A DNA stretch of 37,815 nt. Origin: Candidatus Izemoplasma sp. GTDB taxonomy: Bacteria; Bacillota_I; Bacilli_A; Izemoplasmatales; Izemoplasmataceae. Shown here in pieces: positions 14,603-37,815 of the stretch. The notes beneath the pieces were generated by a model that did not search any database, had not been told where the DNA came from, and saw only the letters and a list, made by a program, of their open reading frames with translations. Both the position numbers and the translations under genes were made by a program. The stretch covers positions 1 to 37,815 of the forward strand of contig SKFU01000088.1 in the NCBI GenBank assembly GCA_007117835.1, read 5' to 3'. Position 1 is the stretch's first letter. Every line of letters begins with the position of its first letter.

Positions 14603-15013
14603 CATTTCAGTTTGTTTTCGGTATAACATTTGTTCCTTTTTTAATGTTTTTAACATCAATAAATGGATGGTTACAGCAGCACCAATGACAATGAGAATGA
14701 TGGTTACATAAGTGCGTTCAACAATAATCATACTAAATACCATTGTCGTCCATAATAAGATGATGGCACCAACTTTTGTTTTTAAGTCAATGGCTTTATA
14801 TGTGATATAACTATAAATGTAAATGCCGAATATTTTATGATGAATCAGCCAATCATATCTTTTTTTCGAGCTTTTAACGTAGCAGTATGCACCAAGCAAT
14901 AAGAAAGGTGTTGTCGGCAATAAAGGCAATATAATACCAAGCGCACCTAAAACTACAGATAGTGTTCCGCCAAGAATCAGCAGACTGTTTTTCAGCTTAC
15001 TTGATTGCTTCAT
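14582..15013 (-). CDS. YbaN/DUF454-family inner-membrane protein
   Basis: 143 residues. The [20 protein letters not shown] segment followed by a short loop with [13 protein letters not shown] is the mark of the YbaN (DUF454) family, small membrane proteins of unknown function. Three to four helices are visible. The ATG at 15013 is preferred to the in-frame TTG at 15016. It overlaps the end of katA by 17 bases and has no clear ribosome site, so translation is probably coupled to catalase. Confidence 0.8.
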
Positions 15014-16463
15014 CAAGCGGTATGTTCAGTGCTTTGGCGACACCTTCACCATACGCCTTATCTGCAAGATAGCAGTGCTTAATATGACGCAGTTTAATGG
15101 CTTTAGGTATATCACCCATATTGCGTGCTGTATTCATAAATAATCGCGCTTGTTCTTCTTGTGGTAATAAACGAAAGAGTTGACCTGGTTGCGTAAAGTA
15201 ATCTGTATCATCTTCTCTAAAATCATAATTGTAGGCATCACCTTCTAAGGCTAGCGGTGGTTCTTTTAACGCTTTTGAGTCATCCCACTCTTCTTCACTG
15301 TTTGGCCAGTAACCCACGCGACCATTCGCATTGTCATCCACACGCATCATGCCGTCACGATGATAGCTGTTGGCTTTGTTTTTTGGCGCATTCACAGGAA
15401 TCGAGGCATGATTAACTCCCAAGCGATAACGTTGTGCATCACCATAAGAAAATAGTCTACCTTGTAACATTCGGTCTGGTGAAAACCCTATTCCAGGTAC
15501 GATGTTGGCAGGATTAAACGCGGCTTGTTCAACATCTCGGAAATAGTTTCCAGGGTTTTTATTGAGTTCAAAATACCCGACTTGAATTAATGGATAATCG
15601 CTTTTATACCAAACTTTTGTTAAATCAAATGGATTGGTTGGATGATTTACAGCTTGTGCTTCAGTCATGACTTGAATGTACATTGTCCAACGTGGATAGT
15701 CTTTGTTATCAATGGCAGTTAATAAATCATGTTGATGGGATTCACGGTCTTTCCCAATTAGCATTTCCGCGGCCTCATCGGTAAGATATTCTATCCCTTG
15801 ATTAGTTTTTAAATGGAATTTAACCCATACTCTTTCATTATTACTATTAATCATGCTATAAGTATGTGAACCATACCCGTTCATATGTCGATAGGTCTTA
15901 GAAATACCACGATCACTCATGGTTATGGTCACTTGATGCAACGCTTCGGGTAACAAAGTCCAGAAGTCCCAATTGTTCTTCGCACTACGCTCATTGGTGT
16001 AAGGATCACGTTTAACGGCTCTGTTTAAATCAGGAAAACGGTGTGGGTCACGAATAAAAAACACTGGCGTGTTATTTCCGACCAAATCCCAATTGCCTTC
16101 TTCTGTGTAAAACTTCATTGCGAAACCACGAATATCGCGTTCAGCATCGGCTGCGCCCCGCTCACCAGCAACGGTAGAGAAACGAACAAACATTGGTGTT
16201 TCTTTGCCAATTTCAGAAAATATGCTGGCTTTGGTGTATTTGGTAATATCGTGAGTAACCACAAACTGACCAAACGCGCCCGAGCCCTTAGCATGCATGC
16301 GACGTTCAGGAATTACTTCTCTATCAAAATGCGCAAGTTTTTCTAAATACCAAACATCTTGTAACAACATTGGACCACGTTTGCCCGCGGTCATTGCATT
16401 TTCATTGTCTGGTACTGGTGCCCCCACATAATTTGTTAACTTAGGTTTTTTAGTTTTCGGCAT
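14997..16463 (-). CDS. katA: Monofunctional haem catalase
   Basis: 488 residues, the small-subunit clade 3 size. It breaks hydrogen peroxide into water and oxygen. His57 lies in [14 protein letters not shown]-like context ([20 protein letters not shown]), Asn130 in [13 protein letters not shown], and the haem-ligand Tyr340 in [14 protein letters not shown]. The AAGGAGGATAT site is strong and the promoter is at 16505-16533. Presence of catalase beside an oxygen-sensitive AOR pathway suggests an organism that meets oxygen at times. Confidence 0.98.
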
Positions 16464-20410: not shown

Positions 20411-22393
20411 TTAATTTTGAAGGGTTTGTTTCATTTGCTCAATAAACTTATTTGCAACCTGTGGATCAAACTGGCTGCCCATATGTGTTTGTATTTCAAT
20501 GAGTGCTTCTACTTTGGTTAAGACCTTGCGATATGTTCTTTGTTCAGTCATGGCGTCATAAGCATCCACCACAGCAATAATTCTTGCCTCTAAAGGAATT
20601 TCATCACCCTTAATGCCTTTAGGGTAACCCAAACCATCAAAGCGTTCATGATGGGTATAAACAATATTTGCAATGTGGGCATATTCTGGGACTGATGACA
20701 AAATCTTAAATCCTGAGACAGGATGTTTTTTTATTTGTTCATATTCTTGGTTTGTGAGTAAGTCTGGTTTATCTAAAATTGTTTCTGAAATATTGATTTT
20801 ACCAATGTCATGCAAACGCGCTGCAAGTTTAACACGATTAACAAACTCTGGATTCGGGTCAAACTGTCTCGCAATCTGTCCAGCAATTTGACTGACTCTT
20901 TCTGAGTGCATTTTTTCTCTAGGACTTTTTTCAAACAAGGTAGACATGATAATATCAACTGTTTTTTTCGATATACTTGACCCTTCATACACTTTATTTT
21001 CATGCAGTTTAATCACTGCTTTATTAAATGTTTCGGTCAATGGTTTGGTGCGATTGTCTGATACTGCATACCCATAACTCATTTTCAAATCAAGATTATG
21101 GTATTCAAGTGATTCTGATGCGTGTTTTATGGATTGAATAATGGTTTGAATCGTCTGTTTATCCAAACCTTCACTGATTAACGAAAATTCATCACCACCC
21201 GTACGGTATACGTCAACCTCAGGATAAACATCAGTCACTGTTTCAATCGTTTGTGCGACAGTTTTAAGAATCTCATTACCAACACTATATCCCAATGTTG
21301 TATTAAATATTTGGAACGCATTAATGTCAAAGATGATTACAGTGACAGGATAAACAAACAGTGATTCATCCTTAAAGAATTGTTCATCAAACGACATACG
21401 GTTATTTAAGCCGGTTAAGAGGTCCTTTTTTTTCAGTTGGTCAATGTTTTGTTTTTGTGAAAGTTCTTCGGTTAAATCTTCAACGATACCAATCCCACCA
21501 ATAACACGGTTTTCTTCGTAAATCGGCGAAAACTGAACTCTTACAGGCACCTCGTGTCCAGATAATATCGATTGATAAGGGCCTTCATAGCGTGATTTTA
21601 ACCCCTTGATAGAATCGTTTACACCGGCAACAATGTCAGTGTTTGGTAATGTCTTCATATCAAGACCTTTTAACTGTTTTGTGGTGGTCTTTAGAATATC
21701 AGCGAATGCTTGATTCGCAAGTTCAATCACCCCAAAAGTATTGTAATGAAAAATCCCAAGTTTTGAGGTATCAATCAGTGTTCGGTATTTTTTTTCGCTT
21801 GCACTTAATAATTTTTGTTGGTCTAACCGGTTTTGATGGTTGAGTAAGGCAATACTTAACAGTGCTGTGGCGATTGGAAATGCAAGTATCATTACTGGGC
21901 CTAACAATCTAATAACGGTTATGTTTAGTGGATAAGGGAATGCCAGTTGGGCCATAATGACAAATAAATGCACTAAAAGTCCAAATAAATAAAACTGACT
22001 CAGGCGATTGATCTTTAACCGGTGGATAATGTATCTTTTCCAAATCAAGCCAATTATCAACGCTAATAACAGTGATAATATGCCGGCATAAACGCCAACA
22101 CCGCCAACATATAGGCGATAAGCCATTGCAATGACAGTCGCTACCACTGCCGTAAGATGAGGGAAAAACAATGCTGTAACACCAATCATCACACTTCGGG
22201 TATCAAAAATAGCGCCAGTTGATAGTGTCCAAGCATTCATCATAATGACGACAGTAATGCCGCCTATCAAAACACCTATCAAACCATTGATAAGTGGTTT
22301 TTTTAAGTCGAAACGGGCGCCTGGAAGTGTAACGATGAACACCAAACCAAACAATAAGATGATGTTAACGCTAATGTCTCTAATTAGTTCCAT
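20411..22393 (-). CDS. Membrane 5TM-PAS-GGDEF-HD-GYP signalling protein
   Basis: 660 residues. Residues 1-185 are a LytS-type membrane sensor (5TM-5TMR), with GAIFDTRSVMIG (60-71) and AYRLYVGGVGVYAG typical of it. A PAS domain follows (about 198-310), then GGDEF (about 322-480; intact GGDEF 399-403, no RxxD inhibitory site), then HD-GYP with HDIGK (528-532) and HHERFDGLGYPKG (581-593). It could both make and break c-di-GMP or related cyclic dinucleotides; which activity prevails is unknown. A GAGAG site precedes the ATG. It starts 52 bases after the TPR-GAF-GGDEF gene and probably shares its promoter. Confidence 0.93.
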   Translation of the reverse strand: MELIRDISVNIILLFGLVFIVTLPGARFDLKKPLINGLIGVLIGGITVVIMMNAWTLSTGAIFDTRSVMIGVTALFFPHLTAVVATVIAMAYRLYVGGVGVYAGILSLLLALIIGLIWKRYIIHRLKINRLSQFYLFGLLVHLFVIMAQLAFPYPLNITVIRLLGPVMILAFPIATALLSIALLNHQNRLDQQKLLSASEKKYRTLIDTSKLGIFHYNTFGVIELANQAFADILKTTTKQLKGLDMKTLPNTDIVAGVNDSIKGLKSRYEGPYQSILSGHEVPVRVQFSPIYEENRVIGGIGIVEDLTEELSQKQNIDQLKKKDLLTGLNNRMSFDEQFFKDESLFVYPVTVIIFDINAFQIFNTTLGYSVGNEILKTVAQTIETVTDVYPEVDVYRTGGDEFSLISEGLDKQTIQTIIQSIKHASESLEYHNLDLKMSYGYAVSDNRTKPLTETFNKAVIKLHENKVYEGSSISKKTVDIIMSTLFEKSPREKMHSERVSQIAGQIARQFDPNPEFVNRVKLAARLHDIGKINISETILDKPDLLTNQEYEQIKKHPVSGFKILSSVPEYAHIANIVYTHHERFDGLGYPKGIKGDEIPLEARIIAVVDAYDAMTEQRTYRKVLTKVEALIEIQTHMGSQFDPQVANKFIEQMKQTLQN

Positions 22394-22445
22394 GATTAGA
22401 CTCTCTTTTATAAGACCTGTGACTCTTTTTAAACATTAATTGTAA

Positions 22446-24569
22446 TTATTCAGTAGTAAAGTGCATTGCAGTCACTTTGTTTTTACCGTGTTTTTTACTT
22501 TGATAAAGCTGTTGATCAGCGTGTTTAATAAATTGTTCTGGTTGTATGGTTTGCGTGGGTAGAATTGTCGAAAGCCCAATCGAAACCGTAATCTTTCCAG
22601 ACACGTGTTCAAGATGTTTCATGGCGTGAATCGATTGCGTGAGCTGTGCTGCATATCGTTTCGCCTCGTCGAGTTTAGTATCCGGTAAAAGCATCACAAA
22701 CTCATCACCACCATAACGCGCAACAAAGTAATCGATTGGTTTGTTTTTATCTAAATAATAGGCAACATTTTTAATCACTTCATCACCGGTTAAATGACCG
22801 TAAGTGTCATTAAAGTCTTTAAAGTTGTCGATATCAACAAACAGCATGGAAAGCGGCGATTTTTTTTGCTTTGCGGATGCCAACATCGATACCAATGTTT
22901 CATCAAACAAGCGGCGATTAGGAATGCCGGTTAACCCATCCGATTCAGAAAGCAATTTCAACTTTTGATTTAAGATTGCGAGTTCTTTGGTGTGTTTTGC
23001 ATTTTTAATTGAAATCGCTAAATAATACGCGAGTGTTTGCAGTAAAACCTCATGCATTTCCGTATACATGTTACGGTTTTTAGCTTGAATAGTTACTGTC
23101 CCAATTGGTTCACCTTCGACAATTAGCGGTGCATACATTGCAGACATCATTAATTCGCTACGACTTGAAGAAAAATCTTTAATATAGGCTTTATACTCTT
23201 TTTTAACATCATTTATTCTAAACGTTTCTTGATTAACAAAACAATAAACACTTAAACTCATTTTACTATCTAAAGAAAATGAAAGCGGTTCTTGCCTAAG
23301 ATTGTTTTCGATAAATAAATCAATGTCTAATGAATTGGTTTCTTTATTGTGAAATCCAATTGCTAACGTGTCTACAACCATCAATTGATTGATGTTTTCA
23401 GATATTTTAGTGAAAATATCTTCCAAATCGTGGGTTGCAGTCATGCTTCTACCAATATTGCTTAACACTTGCATTTGCTTAAAGTTTTTTCGTAACTGCT
23501 CAGAAAGCAATCGGTACGTTTCTGTTTCTTGAATCGCTGTGTTTAATTTCGTTTGAAACTCAATGTTTTTGATACGCTCTATACGGCGATTTTCTTGAAC
23601 GATTAAGCTCGAGTCAAAATACGCTTTGTAGTGGATATAGGCGTTATCTTTGAGCTGAGTGCGTTCATAAAATAAAGCCAGCTGTTCATGAACACGCGGC
23701 ATAAACTCTACGGAGTCTAGACGTTTTGCCAGTGAAAAAGCTGTTTCAAAATGGGTTTTTGCCGCATCGACAGCTTGGGCTTGGTCATACGCGTTAGCAA
23801 GTTCAATATGAAGTCTTACTAAAATATAAAAATCCTGACTCTCCTCAGCACTAACGATACCTTTTTTAAGTTGTTCTATACTGCATTCATAATTATTAAT
23901 CTTTCGGTAATACTGACCAAAAGCATAGTAGCTATGCGCAAGTAATAGTGTTTGTTCGAAGTCAATCGCATGCTGATATGCGTTTATAAATTTGTCGTAA
24001 GCCTGATCTAATTTATCTAAGTTTAAGTAGACATTACCAATGTTTAAGTACGCAATCGCAATCGCGTATTCATCAGCGTTAATTTGTGCAAGTTGATAAC
24101 TTTTTTGGTAAAAATCCAACGCAGTTGGGTAATTTTTCAAATCCTCGTGCAATGTGCCTAAATTATTAAAAAGTTTTGACTTTTGCTCATCAAGATTTTT
24201 TTCTTCTACAAGCTTAAGCGCCGTTGTATAGTAGTTAAGTGCTTGATCTGTAAATTCAATCGTAATGTAAACATTGCCTAGCCCTATCAGTGCTTCGGCT
24301 TGGGTTTCATGGTGCTCAATTTTGGTCGCGAGTTCCAGAGATTGGCTTAAAAAATCAACGGCTTTATCAAAATCACCGTTAATCCAATAACAGCGTCCAA
24401 TACGCATTTTACTTCTTGCAATTCCTTCATTAATGCCCTGTTCAATTGACAATACAAGCGCTTTTTCAGCAATTTTAAGCGCTTCTTCTGTACTTTTTCT
24501 CTCGGCACTTAACGCTTCTAACAAAAGTTCTTCAACCTGTTTGAAATGATTATTTCTTTCAACCTTCAT
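22446..24569 (-). CDS. TPR-GAF-GGDEF diguanylate cyclase
   Basis: 707 residues from the ATG at 24569, placed 7 bases after GTGGAG; an in-frame GTG at 24581 is part of that site. The first 330 residues are about seven to eight TPR units (ARSKMRIGRCYWINGDFDKA, AEALIGLGNVYITIEFTDQA and so on), then a helical linker, a GAF domain (about 360-535) and a C-terminal GGDEF domain with LTGIPNRRLFDE and RYGGDEF intact. No RxxD product-inhibition site is visible. There are no membrane segments, so it is cytoplasmic. It is first of the two-gene c-di-GMP unit. Confidence 0.93.
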   Translation of the reverse strand: MKVERNNHFKQVEELLLEALSAERKSTEEALKIAEKALVLSIEQGINEGIARSKMRIGRCYWINGDFDKAVDFLSQSLELATKIEHHETQAEALIGLGNVYITIEFTDQALNYYTTALKLVEEKNLDEQKSKLFNNLGTLHEDLKNYPTALDFYQKSYQLAQINADEYAIAIAYLNIGNVYLNLDKLDQAYDKFINAYQHAIDFEQTLLLAHSYYAFGQYYRKINNYECSIEQLKKGIVSAEESQDFYILVRLHIELANAYDQAQAVDAAKTHFETAFSLAKRLDSVEFMPRVHEQLALFYERTQLKDNAYIHYKAYFDSSLIVQENRRIERIKNIEFQTKLNTAIQETETYRLLSEQLRKNFKQMQVLSNIGRSMTATHDLEDIFTKISENINQLMVVDTLAIGFHNKETNSLDIDLFIENNLRQEPLSFSLDSKMSLSVYCFVNQETFRINDVKKEYKAYIKDFSSSRSELMMSAMYAPLIVEGEPIGTVTIQAKNRNMYTEMHEVLLQTLAYYLAISIKNAKHTKELAILNQKLKLLSESDGLTGIPNRRLFDETLVSMLASAKQKKSPLSMLFVDIDNFKDFNDTYGHLTGDEVIKNVAYYLDKNKPIDYFVARYGGDEFVMLLPDTKLDEAKRYAAQLTQSIHAMKHLEHVSGKITVSIGLSTILPTQTIQPEQFIKHADQQLYQSKKHGKNKVTAMHFTTE

Positions 24570-24603
24570 GTTTAGCTCCACAAATTTTGACGTTGATAAT
24601 CTT

Positions 24604-26142: not shown

Positions 26143-27657
26143 TTACTTCTGATTTGGCTGTATTTTATACTTATAAACCAAAACAAAGACGACAACACCG
26201 ATAATCAATACGGCATAGGATAAAACAATCATTTGTGTGAAACCATACATTAAGTATCCAAGCGCAGCAATACCTGCAGTCACAAGTACATAAGGTAACT
26301 GTGAGATAAAGTGAGCATAAAGTGTCGACTGTGCACCTGTGGCACTAAGTACTGTTGTATCTGACACGGGTGATGAATGGTCACCAACCACTGCCCCACC
26401 AAGTACTGCGGCGATGACGCCTGGCATCATAATTGGATTAATGGCCATTACAATTGGCACTGCGATAGGTAATAAAATCCCAAAAGCACCCCAACTTGTA
26501 CCGGTTGCAAACGCAATAAATGCTGCCACAAAGAACATTAAAAACGGTAAAAATGCACCAGATATATTTGTGCTTGCAATCACGTCTGCGATCATTTCAC
26601 CGAGTTCTAAATCTTGAATAGCGCCTGAAATCATCCAAGCCAAGATTAAAATAACGACAGCCGATTTAAGCATTCCAAACATGCCCTCACGTGAGACTCT
26701 AAATAAGTCTTTTGTTTTAACTCCAGGATCAGCAAAACCAAAGATTAATGCAACGATAAACGCAACCAAACCACCGATAAATAACGGGATTGTAATGTCT
26801 TGGTCCATAAATGCACTTGCATTGAACTCCGCTGCTCTAAACATCATAAACAATGTGGTAATTATAAGTAACCCAACAGGTACGATTAATGTCCATTGTG
26901 TCGCTTTAGTGCCTTGAACTTGATCTTCAGAGACAACTTCACCATCAATCATTTTTGATTCATCATTGCCTGCGAGAGCTTTTTCTTCAAAATCTTTCAT
27001 TGGTCCAATGTTAATTTTATACCAGACAACAACAAAAACCATAACAATTGCAGTAATTGGGTAAAATTGATAAGGAATTGACGCTAAAAATCCGCCAAAC
27101 GCATTGTGGCCTTGATAGTTATGTGTCGCAAATAACCCACCCAATATACCAATAATGTAAGCGCCCCATGTGGAAATCGGCATTAAAATAACAACGGGTG
27201 CACTCGTCGAGTCAATGATGTAGGCAAGTTTCGCACGTGACACCTTATATTTATCAGTAATTGGTTTTGAAATCTCACCGATAACCAAGGCGTTGAAGTA
27301 GTCATCAATAAAAATTAGTAAACCTAAAAACCAAGTCAATAGCTTTGCAGAAACAGGGTTTTTAACCTTGCTAACAGCCCAATCTGCAAAAGCACGAATA
27401 CCGCCACTCAAAGCGATAACAGACGTGATTCCACCGATGAGGATGACAAACCCCACAATTGGCATATACCAGTCTAAATCGGTGATAATGCCATTAAAGG
27501 AATTCCAAAAATACGTGTACGCGTCACCAAAATTAAAGTTACTGTAAACCAATGCCGCTAAAAATACACCAACACCTAACGACAGCAATACTTTCCTCGT
27601 CAAGATGACGAGTGTAATCATGATTATTGCAGGTAATAACGCTAAAAATAAATCCAT
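26143..27657 (-). CDS. nhaC: NhaC-family Na+/H+ antiporter
   Basis: 504 residues from the ATG at 27657, preceded by AAAGGAG; a longer frame to 27729 has no site and reads through the promoter. Eleven or twelve helices are visible. Family features are FIDDYFNALVIGEISKPITDKY, SAPVVILMPISTWGAY, FATGTSWGAFGILLPIAVP and LGGAVVGDHSSPVSDTTVLS. It exchanges sodium, or in some members metabolite anions such as malate and lactate, for protons. It is divergent from the heliorhodopsin gene, 163 bases apart. Confidence 0.9.
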   Translation of the reverse strand: MDLFLALLPAIIMITLVILTRKVLLSLGVGVFLAALVYSNFNFGDAYTYFWNSFNGIITDLDWYMPIVGFVILIGGITSVIALSGGIRAFADWAVSKVKNPVSAKLLTWFLGLLIFIDDYFNALVIGEISKPITDKYKVSRAKLAYIIDSTSAPVVILMPISTWGAYIIGILGGLFATHNYQGHNAFGGFLASIPYQFYPITAIVMVFVVVWYKINIGPMKDFEEKALAGNDESKMIDGEVVSEDQVQGTKATQWTLIVPVGLLIITTLFMMFRAAEFNASAFMDQDITIPLFIGGLVAFIVALIFGFADPGVKTKDLFRVSREGMFGMLKSAVVILILAWMISGAIQDLELGEMIADVIASTNISGAFLPFLMFFVAAFIAFATGTSWGAFGILLPIAVPIVMAINPIMMPGVIAAVLGGAVVGDHSSPVSDTTVLSATGAQSTLYAHFISQLPYVLVTAGIAALGYLMYGFTQMIVLSYAVLIIGVVVFVLVYKYKIQPNQK

Positions 27658-27795: not shown

Positions 27796-27820
27796 TATTT
27801 ATATATATAGGGGGTTTTTT

Positions 27821-28585
27821 ATGAACAAAACACTACTTGCTTTTAATCGAAAAATGGGTTTTTTACATTTAATACAAGGCTTAGCTATACTGATATTATC
27901 ACTCACTGTGGATGTTTTTAAAGACTTTAAACCAACGGTATTCGGACGTTTTTTTGAGGTGTACGAATCGGGTGGCTATGGTCCTGTAACACAGGCTATG
28001 TTCGATTTGCCTTTTGGGATTTTAGTCTCACTTTTTTTATTGTTGAGTGCCTTGTTTCATTTTTTAATTTCTGGACCGTTTAAAGACTATTATTTAACAA
28101 ACATAGACAAAGGTATAAATACGTTAAGATGGTATGAATACGCTTTATCTTCATCGATTATGATTGTCTTGCTTGCGGCCATGTTTGGTCTACTTACAAT
28201 AGAAGCAATAATCTTAATTTTCACCATCAATGCACTGATGAATCTTTTTGGCTTGTTAATGGAAAAAATGAATCCATTAGATCGCACTAAAACGGATTGG
28301 ACTGCCCATTGGTTTGGTTGGGTTGCAGGGCTCGCACCTTGGGTAATGATTGTGATTTATATGCTTAATAACGGGGATTTATCTCAACTGCCATGGTTTG
28401 TGATCCCTGGATTAATTTTCTATTTCTTAACCTTTAACTTGTTTGCCTTCAATCAATACTTTCAATACAAAAAAATAGGGCCATGGAAAGACTATATCTA
28501 TGGTGAGCGTATGTATGTTTGGTTAAGTTTATTTGGAAAATCAGTGTTGGCGTGGTTTATCTTTCTAGGCATACTTTTGGCTTAA
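27821..28585 (+). CDS. Heliorhodopsin
   Basis: 254 residues with seven helices (about 13-31, 62-84, 105-122, 127-147, 164-182, 190-212, 231-253), the length of the type member 48C12. Helix 3 has RWYEYALSSSIMIV, with Glu106 in the place of the Schiff-base counterion. Helix 7 has WLSLFGKSVLAWFIF, with Lys240 as the retinal-binding lysine and Ser236 four residues before it. His80 in ALFHFL also fits. The N-terminal NRKMGFLHLIQG is typical. Heliorhodopsins bind all-trans retinal, face inside-out relative to other rhodopsins and have slow photocycles; their job is still debated. The ATG follows AGGGGG. It is divergent from nhaC and probably monocistronic. No carotenoid cleavage dioxygenase is seen in the window. 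Confidence 0.93.
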   Translation: MNKTLLAFNRKMGFLHLIQGLAILILSLTVDVFKDFKPTVFGRFFEVYESGGYGPVTQAMFDLPFGILVSLFLLLSALFHFLISGPFKDYYLTNIDKGINTLRWYEYALSSSIMIVLLAAMFGLLTIEAIILIFTINALMNLFGLLMEKMNPLDRTKTDWTAHWFGWVAGLAPWVMIVIYMLNNGDLSQLPWFVIPGLIFYFLTFNLFAFNQYFQYKKIGPWKDYIYGERMYVWLSLFGKSVLAWFIFLGILLA

Positions 28586-28743: not shown

Positions 28744-28794
28744 AAAAAAAATGAGCGGCACGACAAACGTATTACGTCGTGTCACTCATTTTTT
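28744..28794. terminator. Terminator after rluF
   Basis: AAAAAATGAG-CG-GCACGAC pairs with GTCGTGT-CA-CTCATTTTTT. It lies 10 bases past the rluF stop and may also back up heliorhodopsin termination. Confidence 0.8.
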
Positions 28795-28803
28795 AATTAT
28801 AAC

Positions 28804-29496
28804 TTAACCAATCAACTGAAACAGTGTTTGCAGTTCAGTGGGTGTTAGTGCGCGATATTTTCCGACAGGCACATCTAAATGTATGTGCATAATTCGCGTT
28901 CTTTTTAGTGAAACAACTTGGTACCCAAAGTATGTACACATACGTCTAATTTGGCGATTCAAGCCTTCGGTAAGAACAATACTAAAGGTTTTGTCGCTTA
29001 TTTGTTTTATTGTACAAGGTTTTGTGACTGTGTTTAAAATTGGCACACCTTTGGACATGTTAATAATGAAATCATGGGTGATTTTTTTATTAACTGAAAC
29101 AATGTACTCTTTTTCATGATTGTTTTCAGCCCTTAGTATTTTATTGACGATATCGCCATCATTGGTCATTAATATCAAGCCTTCACTGTCTTTATCAAGT
29201 CTTCCAACATGAAAAATACGTGTGTTGTATCGCATGAAATCGATCATGTTGTTCTTAATTAAGAGATCGGTTGTCGAGACGATGCCGACGGGTTTGTTAA
29301 ATGCCAAATAAACCCAATCATCGGGTCTTGATATGGGTATGCCATTGACAGTAATAATGTCTTCTTTACTCACTTTAGATCCAATCTCTGCCAGCTGTCC
29401 GTTGATTTTTATTTTTTGCTGCGCGATTAAACGGTCGGCCTCTCTTCGAGAACAATACCCCGATTCACTGAGATACTTGTTTATTCTTGTGTCCAA
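28804..29496 (-). CDS. rluF: 23S rRNA pseudouridine synthase, RluF type
   Basis: 230 residues from a TTG start at 29496. TTG is preferred because GGAGGTG lies 6 bases before it and the protein then begins at the conserved RINKYLSESG; the upstream in-frame ATG (29520) has no site and includes the ribosome site as codons. The S4 domain is at residues 5-55 (SRREADRLI). The catalytic GRLDKDSEGL holds the active-site Asp, and the KEYIVSV and GLNRQIRRMC motifs follow. RluF makes pseudouridine in 23S rRNA (position 2604 in E. coli). Confidence 0.9.
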   Translation of the reverse strand: MDTRINKYLSESGYCSRREADRLIAQQKIKINGQLAEIGSKVSKEDIITVNGIPISRPDDWVYLAFNKPVGIVSTTDLLIKNNMIDFMRYNTRIFHVGRLDKDSEGLILMTNDGDIVNKILRAENNHEKEYIVSVNKKITHDFIINMSKGVPILNTVTKPCTIKQISDKTFSIVLTEGLNRQIRRMCTYFGYQVVSLKRTRIMHIHLDVPVGKYRALTPTELQTLFQLIG

Positions 29497-29552
29497 CGGT
29501 TTCACCTCCAAGGCATTCATGTGCTTGAATTCATTGTTACATTGTGTATAGA

Positions 29553-34305: not shown

Positions 34306-35223
34306 ATGAAGTTTCCTGATGAGTTAATGTTTTTAAAAAATGGGCGTGCCAAACAAAAACAAACAAGTCTGTCGATGACAGGGCTTTTAACTGTGGTTAG
34401 CGGCGCCACATCTGGTGTCGGTTTATCGACGATTAAACGGCTTGCGAAAGCCGGGTCAAACATTGTCATGGTATGTCGTAACCAGGCGAAAGCTGAACCG
34501 ATAAAACGCGCGATTGAATCTCAATATTCAGTCTCTGTCGATATCGTTATCGCTGATTTTATGGTCTTTGATTCTGTAAAATCTGCGGCGAGTCTAATCA
34601 ATAAAAGCTATGATCGAATCGATGTTTTGATTAATAGTGTTGGCATTCATTCAACCAAAAAGATATATACCAAGGATGGCATTGAATCGAGTTTTTGTGT
34701 CAATCATTTAAGTGTGTTTTTGTTTACTGAGCTATTGCTTGATAAGTTAATAAAAAGCGCGCCTGCGAGAATTATTCATGTGAGTTCAGAAGGTCATAGA
34801 TTTAGTGGTGTGAACCTTAAAGACGTCAACTTTAAGCGTCGCATTTATACTGGTCTAAGAGGGTATGGCCAATCAAAAAGTGCTCAACTGTTGGCCATGA
34901 GTGCGCATAATGAACTACTTAAAGGGACAGGTGTTACGATTAATGCCTGTCATCCTGGTGCAGTAAAAACCAATATCGGAAACAATAATGGCCTATTATA
35001 CCGAGTGTTTTCTAAAGTGATTACATCCCGTTTCTTAAAAGACGTTTCACGCGCTTCAGACGCGCTTTATTACTTAGCCGCAGACCCTTCGATGCAGGCG
35101 ATATCCGGTAAATTTTTTCATCTAACGATCGAAGAAAAACCGGCAAAACATGCATTAACCCATGATTTAGTCAATCCCGTCTATAATTTAAGTAAAGTCA
35201 TGACAGGCCTAGCCAATGAATGA
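34306..35223 (+). CDS. Short-chain dehydrogenase, retinol-dehydrogenase-like
   Basis: 305 residues. The cofactor loop is SGATSGVG (about 32-39) and is followed by MVCRNQAKAE, whose Arg fits NADP(H). NSVG replaces the common NNAG. Catalytic serine is in HVSSEGHRFSG, and Tyr-x3-Lys is YGQSK. The overall pattern resembles the RDH11-14/WWOX subgroup, which acts on retinoids or other long polyenes and steroids, but substrate cannot be read from sequence. GGAAGGA precedes the ATG. Its stop overlaps the next start by 8 bases (ATGAATGA). Confidence 0.85.
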   Translation: MKFPDELMFLKNGRAKQKQTSLSMTGLLTVVSGATSGVGLSTIKRLAKAGSNIVMVCRNQAKAEPIKRAIESQYSVSVDIVIADFMVFDSVKSAASLINKSYDRIDVLINSVGIHSTKKIYTKDGIESSFCVNHLSVFLFTELLLDKLIKSAPARIIHVSSEGHRFSGVNLKDVNFKRRIYTGLRGYGQSKSAQLLAMSAHNELLKGTGVTINACHPGAVKTNIGNNNGLLYRVFSKVITSRFLKDVSRASDALYYLAADPSMQAISGKFFHLTIEEKPAKHALTHDLVNPVYNLSKVMTGLANE

Positions 35224-36799
35224 TTATGATGTGATTATTGTCGGTGGGGGTATCGCCGGGTTGACGGCCGCAGCGTATGCATCAAAAGCCAATTTACGTG
35301 TCTGTTTAATTGAAAAACACACCAGTTTCGGTGGAAACATTAGTTCTTTTTCATATCATGGTCACCAGTTTGATGGTGGTATTCGTTCGATTGAATCCTC
35401 AGGTGTTTTAAAGCCGATGATCGCTGATTTAGATCTTGATATTACTTTGATAAAAAGTCCTGTCACATTAGGTATAAAGCATGATGTCATCACGCTGAGT
35501 GATAGAAATGATATGGACGCTTACGAAGCCTTACTGATAAAGCATTTTCCAAAAGAAGCCGGGGCAATCAAGGCGATTGTTAAAAAAATGAAAAATATAT
35601 TGAACCACATGGATGTTTTGTATGGCATTGACAATCCTATCATTGTCGATATAAAAAAAAGACCACGGTATGCGTTAAGCTTAATCCCTTGGTTGTTTAA
35701 GTTTATCCCAACCATATTAACCATTAACCGACTTACCATGCCTGTCAATAATTACTTGAGAAAGTATACAAATAATCAAGCATTAATTGATATAATCACT
35801 CAACATTTTTTTAAGTCAACACCCACTTTTTTTGCACTTGGTTATTTCAATATATACTTTGATTACTATTACCCATTGGGAGGCACAGGGCAATTGATTA
35901 AAGCGCTAGAAGACAGTCTCTCAACCACAAATGCAACGCTTTTAAAATCTAAAAAAATCACATCAATTGATGCATATAATCACGAAGTTACCGATCATCA
36001 AGGCACGGTTTATCGCTATAAGAAGTTGGTATGGGCCGCAGACCTTAATGCTTTATACAATCAGTTAACCCCTTTAAACACATTCAACCCGCGTACTCAA
36101 TCAAGGATTAACGCAAAAAAAGAACTGTTAATCAATAAACGGGGTGCCGAATCTGTGTTGACAGTTTATCTTCAAACTGACTTACCGCTTGATTATTTTA
36201 GTGCAATTGCGAGTGGGCATTTCTTTTACACAGCGAGCACGTTAGGCATCCACGCCAACACGTATGATTACTCAAAAGATCAAAGCACGCTGTTTGATAC
36301 ATTAAAATCGCTTTACGATTTAGAAACTTATGAAATCTCGATCCCCGCTTTAAGAGATTCTTCGCTCTCACCCAAAAATGAAACAGGACTAATTGTGGCT
36401 ATCTTGTTTTCATATGATTTGATCAAACACATTGAAGATTGCGGTTTTTATGATGATTTTAAAGCAATGACACAAACACACTTCATTAAGCATTTGTCAC
36501 AGTCAATCTATCCCAATCTTGAAAACCACATTATCCGTAGCTTTTGCTCAACACCACTTACTGTTAAAAACAATACAAGCAGTACTGATGGGGCAATCAT
36601 TGGTTGGGCTTATGACAGTAATCCGATACCGGTACATCATAAAATGTCAAAAATTACCCAATCGGTTAATACACCAATTCCTGATATCTATCAAGCCGGA
36701 CAATGGTCATTCAGTCCTGCCGGTGTGCCAATTTCAATCATTACAGGAAAACTTGCGGCGGACAAAACCATAAAGGCTTTAAAACCTATAAAATACTAA
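35216..36799 (+). CDS. CrtI/CrtISO-type FAD-dependent oxidoreductase (first of two)
   Basis: 527 residues. The N-terminal FAD/NAD fingerprint is VIIVGGGIAGLTAAAYASK, ending in LIEKH; the C-terminal FAD site is [36 protein letters not shown] in the middle is typical of phytoene desaturase, carotenoid isomerase and retinol saturase-like enzymes. It should act on a hydrophobic polyene or lipid, perhaps at the membrane surface. Translation is probably coupled to the SDR. The next gene is a paralogue 15 bases downstream. No phytoene synthase is seen in the window. Confidence 0.85.
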   Translation: MNDYDVIIVGGGIAGLTAAAYASKANLRVCLIEKHTSFGGNISSFSYHGHQFDGGIRSIESSGVLKPMIADLDLDITLIKSPVTLGIKHDVITLSDRNDMDAYEALLIKHFPKEAGAIKAIVKKMKNILNHMDVLYGIDNPIIVDIKKRPRYALSLIPWLFKFIPTILTINRLTMPVNNYLRKYTNNQALIDIITQHFFKSTPTFFALGYFNIYFDYYYPLGGTGQLIKALEDSLSTTNATLLKSKKITSIDAYNHEVTDHQGTVYRYKKLVWAADLNALYNQLTPLNTFNPRTQSRINAKKELLINKRGAESVLTVYLQTDLPLDYFSAIASGHFFYTASTLGIHANTYDYSKDQSTLFDTLKSLYDLETYEISIPALRDSSLSPKNETGLIVAILFSYDLIKHIEDCGFYDDFKAMTQTHFIKHLSQSIYPNLENHIIRSFCSTPLTVKNNTSSTDGAIIGWAYDSNPIPVHHKMSKITQSVNTPIPDIYQAGQWSFSPAGVPISIITGKLAADKTIKALKPIKY

Positions 36800-36814
36800 A
36801 AGGAGGCCACTTTT

Positions 36815-37815
36815 ATGACAAAACGTATTGTTATTGTCGGCGCTGGCATTTCTGGATTAACAGCGGCTGCATATTTAGCAAAAGCTGGTCACCATGTCAC
36901 CTTATTAGAAAAATCTGAAGATATCGGTGGTTTGGTTGGCAGTTTTACGGTCAATGGATTCACTTTTGATCATGGTATTCGTGGCGTAGAAAACTCAGGT
37001 ACGCTTTTTCCGATGTTAAAACAACTGGGTATTGCGATTGATTTTTTACCAAATGTTGTTGATATGGGGATTGCTGAGCAGATGATTTCGATTACGCCTG
37101 AAAACAATTTCGGTACTTACAAAGATTTGTTGCTAAAGACCTATCCTAATGACGCTGTTGCCATTGAAAAAATCTTTATAGATGTTAAAAAAATCTCGCG
37201 CTACATGAATGTTTTGTATGATATCGATAACCCATTATTTTTGGACCCAAAAGAAGATTACAAGTATTTACTTAAAACAATCGTGCCATGGATGTTTAAA
37301 TATACCTTCACCATCGGTAAAATAGAGAAACTGAAACAACCGATTGTTCCCTATTTAAAAAAATATACCCAAAATATGGATTTAATTGATGCCATAAGCC
37401 AACACTTTTTTACTGATACACCAGCGTTTTTTGCACTGAGCTATCTAAAAATGCATAGTGACTACTACTATCCTTTGGGGGGGACTCAGTCGATTGTTTA
37501 TGCGTTACGCGATTTCATTGTCCAACATCAAGGCATAATAAAAACACACACTGAAGTTACCGCGACTGATGTCAACGCAAAAATAGCTTACAGTGGTAGT
37601 GATGCTTATCCTTATGATGTGTTACTGTGGTGTGGTGATTTAAATCATATGTATCAAGGCATCCGCAATACTGATATCAATTATCATCACCCTCAAGCAG
37701 AGCTCGCCAAAGCAAAAGGCAATGATTCTTTATACCAAATGTACGTATCCGTAGATTTGGATTATTCGTATTATCAAGAAAAGTTCTCAGGGCATGTGTT
37801 TTACATGCCACAAAA
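36815..37815 (+). CDS. CrtI/CrtISO-type FAD-dependent oxidoreductase (second, truncated by window end)
   Basis: The frame opens at an ATG with AGGAGG upstream and stays open for 333 codons to the edge. It begins [21 protein letters not shown] and shares many landmarks with its neighbour: [11 protein letters not shown] (versus DGGIRSIESSG), VLYDIDNP (versus VLYGIDNP), [13 protein letters not shown] and [17 protein letters not shown]. It is thus a tandem paralogue, diverged well beyond a recent copy. The C-terminal FAD site is outside the window. Paired desaturase-like enzymes may form a heteromer or act in succession. Confidence 0.85.

Follow-up and report, generated by a model that had tools for sequence, protein, structure and literature searches.

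Soluble enzymes and membrane transporters have been published as heliorhodopsin partners (PMC9529153, PMC9769723, PMC11109279). AbHeR with glutamine synthetase (PMC9529153), TfHeR with photolyase (PMC9769723) and OcHeR with OmrDE (PMC11109279) stand for an operon-coupled regulatory type, which is defined by a conserved partner in the same operon; TfHeR binds its photolyase (PMC9769723), and the membrane transporter OmrDE is both bound and stimulated (PMC11109279). Viral heliorhodopsins transport protons, which in V2HeR3 has been connected with Glu191 and Trp195, and the prokaryotic 48C12 and TaHeR are reported to be without transport (PMC9448325). Colour has been connected with positions 148, 213 and 240 (48C12 numbering): replacing Gln by Met at 213, or Ala by Ser at 240, gave a blue shift of 5 nm, and the opposite replacements gave red shifts of 9 and 6 nm; exchanges at both positions together moved the absorption by 12 nm (PMC7807009). 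No conserved same-operon partner of the kind found in those three systems was seen for the heliorhodopsin gene described here.

This gene lies in a 37,815 bp stretch, referred to below as the window, which makes up an entire contig of a 1.36-Mb MAG of Candidatus Izemoplasma sp. that is 91% complete. The Izemoplasmatales belong to the class Bacilli in GTDB. The named relatives of the window protein come from Candidatus Izimaplasma, Mollicutes, Tenericutes and Acholeplasmataceae MAGs, which makes a host from the Izemoplasmatales most likely. The features of the window that bear on the gene are as follows.

26143 to 27657, minus strand: NhaC-type Na+/H+ antiporter (PF03553, Pfam match), divergent from the heliorhodopsin gene
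27810 to 27814, plus strand: probable ribosome-binding site GGGGG, read in the sequence, six bases before the ATG
27821 to 28585, plus strand: heliorhodopsin gene of clade B, 254 aa (ORF, profile matches, AlphaFold model, Foldseek)
28130 to 28156, plus strand: TM3 motif WYEYALSSS, residues 104 to 112, with counterion Glu106 (sequence and alignment)
28526 to 28555, plus strand: TM7 motif SLFGKSVLAW, residues 236 to 245, with Ser236, Gly239 and Schiff-base Lys240 (sequence and alignment)
28745 to 28795, either strand: bidirectional hairpin resembling an intrinsic terminator (A-run, GC stem, T-run), where the heliorhodopsin and RluF-like genes converge (intergenic z = -4.9)
28804 to 29520, minus strand: RluF-like 23S rRNA pseudouridine synthase, convergent neighbour (profile matches)
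34306 to 37815, plus strand: SDR oxidoreductase and two tandem CrtI-like FAD oxidoreductases, the second cut by the contig end (profile and homology); link to the heliorhodopsin unproven

The ORF is a genuine, intact, full-length heliorhodopsin. The initial annotation had proposed this identity from seven helices, from Glu106, Ser236, Lys240 and His80, and from a numbering close to that of the founding member, and all of these points were borne out. PF18761 covers the whole protein (275.7 bits, E = 3.8e-82; curated cut-off 26.7 bits), and the NCBIfam HeR equivalog NF038020 matches over the full length with 268.4 bits (cut-off 100 bits). When the protein was used to query PDB sequences with phmmer, heliorhodopsins were the sole matches, with E = 4e-49 for the 48C12 structures and 3e-47 for the Thermoplasmatales HeR. 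The HMMER alignment pairs H16, H80, E106, S236 and K240 with His23, His80, Glu107, Ser237 and Lys241 of 48C12. These five residues are kept in nearly all relatives; S236 and K240 form the SxxxK of TM7, and E106 is the TM3 glutamate counterion.

An AlphaFold model made with 30 relatives as input (pLDDT 89.7) has seven TM helices and an extracellular beta hairpin in the first extracellular loop (residues 39-47/53-62). The best ten Foldseek matches in the PDB were all heliorhodopsins (TM 0.85-0.90, rmsd 1.6-2.8 A), after which the matches dropped to type-1 rhodopsins at E of about 1e-3, and the modelled fold matches the 48C12 structures, the overlay that the initial annotation had proposed as a check. 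Neither outcome that the annotation named as refuting, a missing profile hit or a Lys240 outside the retinal pocket, arose in the profile searches and in this model of the protein chain alone. The predicted loops carry positive charge on the side of the N terminus, a pattern that would agree with an inverted topology (N terminus inside). Against orthologues, dN is 0.09-0.13 and dS is saturated, hence no dN/dS ratio could be computed; on these sequence comparisons the gene is under strong purifying selection and is a real gene, not a chance reading frame. An IMG/VR scan with the protein found no viral relatives.

In trees of 65 and 82 sequences, the window protein falls inside a monophyletic group, here named clade B, and the clade-B members compared with it are 63-86% identical; the other heliorhodopsins compared share 40-54% identity. 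The tuning sites 148, 213 and 240 (48C12 numbering) correspond to M147, Q212 and G239 of the window protein. This Met/Gln/Gly triad is present in 21/21 clade-B sequences and in 0/60 others, and all 60 sequences retrieved from outside clade B have Met/Met/Ala. The survey set of relatives' genomes contained 12 Met/Gln/Gly, 49 Met/Met/Ala and two Met/Met/Ser triads, and one truncated sequence. Twelve positions, including Gln212 and Gly239, are specific to clade B; they lie mostly in helices, several of them in TM5-TM7. Judged by these residues, clade B is an Izemoplasmatales sub-branch with a retuned retinal pocket (Met147/Gln212/Gly239), set against the Met/Met/Ala pocket of the same lineage. 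No published description of this signature was found in the heliorhodopsin literature searched; the window protein adds one more member to a known family, and the pocket signature is the part that appears to be undescribed. By analogy with the published variants, clade B probably absorbs at a somewhat longer wavelength than its Met/Met/Ala paralogues, with the proviso that Gly at 240 is not among the substitutions of PMC7807009.

Heliorhodopsins above the family cut-off were found in 64 of 150 relatives, with at most three per genome. Ten of the 11 surveyed clade-B genomes also hold a heliorhodopsin from outside clade B, the exception being the genome of the window. It is conceivable, though rather unlikely, that clade-B (Met/Gln/Gly) and clade-A or clade-C (Met/Met/Ala) proteins in one cell compare two wavelengths with retinal from other organisms; the window genome, seemingly with clade B only, would then hold a reduced version of such a two-colour system.

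Several individual loci deserve mention. At L050:9352-10761 (G113) an intact heliorhodopsin stands in tandem with broken fragments of heliorhodopsin, which suggests duplication and decay. A clade-B heliorhodopsin with 67% identity to that of the window is present on contig L109, whose title reads 'Staphylococcus epidermidis' (MAG GE-07nov19-22), a species label that is probably wrong. Isolate SURF_22 (L116) has a clade-B heliorhodopsin with 77% identity to the window protein; SURF_22 presumably comes from a deep-mine site, and if so, a light protein has been kept in a dark habitat, an odd and unobvious place for a light sensor, which weighs against the regulatory reading given below.

In the window the heliorhodopsin gene stands alone, with NhaC divergent and the RluF-like gene convergent. 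Because of the terminator-like hairpin at 28745 to 28795, its message is probably monocistronic. A simple terminator scan passed over this hairpin, probably on account of its long loop. A promoter scan near the gene returned sites no commoner than in shuffled sequence, and the sole Rfam match in the window is a molybdenum-cofactor riboswitch far from the heliorhodopsin. That riboswitch (RF01055, 6489-6603) belongs to the segment 2511-13254, where it is followed by genes for a molybdate/tungstate-type ABC transporter, MoeA, MoeA-PBP, MoaA and MoaC; facing these on the minus strand are genes for an aldehyde ferredoxin oxidoreductase, a radical SAM/SPASM protein and ThiF. A catalase gene is found at 14997-16463, and an 85% identical catalase at L038:13110-14573 (G002) lies 6 kb from a clade-C heliorhodopsin. 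Tandem c-di-GMP genes (TPR-GAF-GGDEF and 5TMR-PAS-GGDEF-HD-GYP; 20411-24581) lie 3-7 kb from the heliorhodopsin and are not conserved beside other clade-B genes.

The neighbours of clade-B genes differ in nearly every genus despite the 63-86% identity of the proteins, and the clade-B partner is for this reason probably encoded elsewhere, unlinked. In two close relatives, a DJ-1/PfpI-family gene lies 28-37 bp downstream of the clade-B heliorhodopsin (L098:8346-8855 and L114:1928-2437), possibly as part of one operon. An SDR gene lies upstream of the clade-B heliorhodopsin in G030 and in four genomes of genus g5, and is the immediate upstream neighbour in L047 and L102; both the DJ-1/PfpI and the SDR gene are missing beside the window heliorhodopsin.

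No RPE65-family oxygenase scored above the cut-off in 150 relatives, in a search that detected two positive controls, and no BCD/Blh did so in these relatives or across 392 genomes of the phylum, in a search run without a positive control. The window genome, 91% complete, likewise yielded no retinal-forming oxygenase (Blh/BCD, RPE65), and as none was found retinal is probably scavenged. A role for CrtI in a carotenoid route of the window genome was considered and dropped, with only a squalene/phytoene synthase and low-scoring CrtI-like enzymes present; CrtI-family matches above the cut-off occurred in 12 of the 61 genomes searched.

We consider it probable (roughly 0.6) that the window heliorhodopsin is a non-pumping, light-responsive membrane regulator that uses scavenged retinal, acts on an unlinked partner and serves a response to light damage. 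Retinal, presumably taken up from outside, would form a Schiff base with Lys240, with Glu106 as its counterion. Photoisomerisation would then alter the cytoplasmic face of the protein, which would act on a partner whose gene lies at another locus, and the likely benefit would be a light-dependent response against light damage. We infer regulation rather than transport as the function, and in the same manner the uptake of retinal, the colour and the unlinked partner.

Four other readings were weighed against this one. The initial annotation had taken the NhaC gene across the 163 bp gap, a distance that was confirmed (NhaC ATG at 27657), as a sign of light sensing tied to ion stress. The two genes might form a light-controlled unit of ion homeostasis, with the antiporter modulated by the lit heliorhodopsin or with shared divergent regulation, and the stimulation of OmrDE by a heliorhodopsin lends this some substance. 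However, NhaC adjoins no other clade-B heliorhodopsin, the nearest case being L098, where it is 5.5 kb away, and PF03553 is absent among the recurrent upstream neighbours of heliorhodopsins. A partnership with NhaC was rejected since the adjacency is not conserved, and the position of NhaC looks, on gene order, like chance and not part of the system. A wider parallel had at first seemed strong. The commonest family directly downstream of heliorhodopsins is the PF00999 Na+/H+ exchanger (10/110 distinct loci), with a TrkA-domain K+ channel in the same position at 5/110; the exchanger follows clade-A and clade-C heliorhodopsins of several genera, in every case on their strand and at a distance of about 95-160 bp. 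A general pairing of heliorhodopsin and exchanger was abandoned when each of these gaps proved to hold a fluoride riboswitch (RF01734, 50-62 bits; gathering score 34), followed in most by a hairpin and T-run, an intrinsic terminator. The riboswitches in these gaps (at least 10 loci) are as follows.

L083:10414-10473, fluoride riboswitch
L064:9512-9576, fluoride riboswitch
L073:10338-10400, fluoride riboswitch
L074:10310-10369, fluoride riboswitch
L038:7155-7213, fluoride riboswitch
L174:6913-6971, fluoride riboswitch
L155:3561-3621, fluoride riboswitch
L086:4977-5043, fluoride riboswitch
L179:3062-3122, fluoride riboswitch
L067:3856-3916, fluoride riboswitch

With a riboswitch in each gap, the exchangers are under fluoride control, and transcriptional coupling to the heliorhodopsin appears unlikely. 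The window genome carries this riboswitch-exchanger module too, on another contig; its exchanger shares 51-62% identity with those behind heliorhodopsins, and upstream of it lies a PAS-type gene in divergent orientation, with no trace of a heliorhodopsin. As the module is kept without a heliorhodopsin, antiporter adjacency in this order is poor evidence of a functional tie, and we regard a unit with NhaC as decidedly improbable. The polyene-redox-like operon noted in the initial annotation is real, as an SDR and tandem CrtI-like FAD enzymes on the same strand 5.7 kb away, and a retinoid module could be imagined in which an SDR or polyene-redox enzyme converts scavenged retinol to retinal. In addition to the SDR genes of L047 and L102, a homologue lies three genes upstream of the clade-B heliorhodopsin in four genomes of another genus (g5), and in one other genus a clade-A heliorhodopsin has a related pair of FAD enzyme genes as its immediate divergent neighbour (L177:1317-4858 and L184:10498-13952; G062 and G076), one of them about 43% identical to its window homologue. 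Yet SDRs are common, a search of the window genome with the linked SDR gave nothing at E<=1e-30, most genomes with homologues of the window FAD enzymes have them away from heliorhodopsin, and no solved close relative names a substrate; such a module is as doubtful as the unit with NhaC.

Help to photolyase as the chief task, as reported for Trichococcus, is also unlikely, if slightly less so. Photolyase was detected in 36/42 genomes with heliorhodopsin and 5/19 without (61 genomes; p=1e-5, with phylogeny and completeness as confounders), and permutation within genera gave p=0.04. The two are jointly present or jointly absent in genera g7 and g9, a photolyase-family gene lies within 4 kb of the heliorhodopsin at 13/134 loci, and in G030 a photolyase gene is divergent from the SDR-heliorhodopsin pair. 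On the other hand, the photolyase gene of the window genome is on another contig than the heliorhodopsin, and several heliorhodopsin genomes of family f3 are without detected photolyase. The co-occurrence gives no more than indirect support to the link with light and oxidative stress that had been suggested for the window; the ion-stress part of that suggestion, which leaned on NhaC, found no support. Finally, a light-gated or light-driven ion transporter, for which the proton transport of viral heliorhodopsins and the several pocket and TM6/TM7 residues peculiar to clade B might speak, is very unlikely: V2HeR3 Glu191 and Trp195 align with Tyr201 and Phe205 of the window protein, so that the proton-transport hallmark is absent, and the prokaryotic proteins 48C12 and TaHeR are reported not to transport (PMC9448325).

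The function of heliorhodopsins has been argued mainly from gene neighbours, and the window illustrates how such an argument can mislead: the sole recurrent antiporter neighbour in the order is accounted for by fluoride, and the protein is conserved as its neighbours change. Independently of this, the clade-B signature and the frequent presence of two or three heliorhodopsins of different tuning in cells where retinal synthesis was not detected raise a testable question, namely what is sensed.

Among known systems, 48C12 from a freshwater actinobacterium (PDB 6SU3, 6SU4, 6UH3) resembles the window protein in fold (TM 0.85-0.88), key residues, near-identical numbering and Gln213, but the two are only 42-44% identical, and the window protein has Met for Gln at 148, has Gly for Ala before the lysine and is six residues longer near the first extracellular loop. 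The closest solved fold is that of TaHeR from Thermoplasmatales (PDB 6IS6, 7U55; TM 0.90, rmsd 1.6-1.9 A), although identity is 37% and its host is archaeal. TfHeR (PMC9769723) shares a low-GC Gram-positive host and an association with photolyase that is also seen in Izemoplasmatales; there, however, a class II photolyase is in the same operon, whereas the window gene is alone. OcHeR with OmrDE (PMC11109279) and AbHeR with glutamine synthetase (PMC9529153) offer the model of a heliorhodopsin that regulates a partner protein, while clade B has no conserved operon partner. The order's own clade-A and clade-C heliorhodopsins (L053-L091, for example) belong to the same family and frequently share a genome with clade B, but differ in their Met/Met/Ala triad and, in several genera, in the fluoride-riboswitch exchanger behind them.
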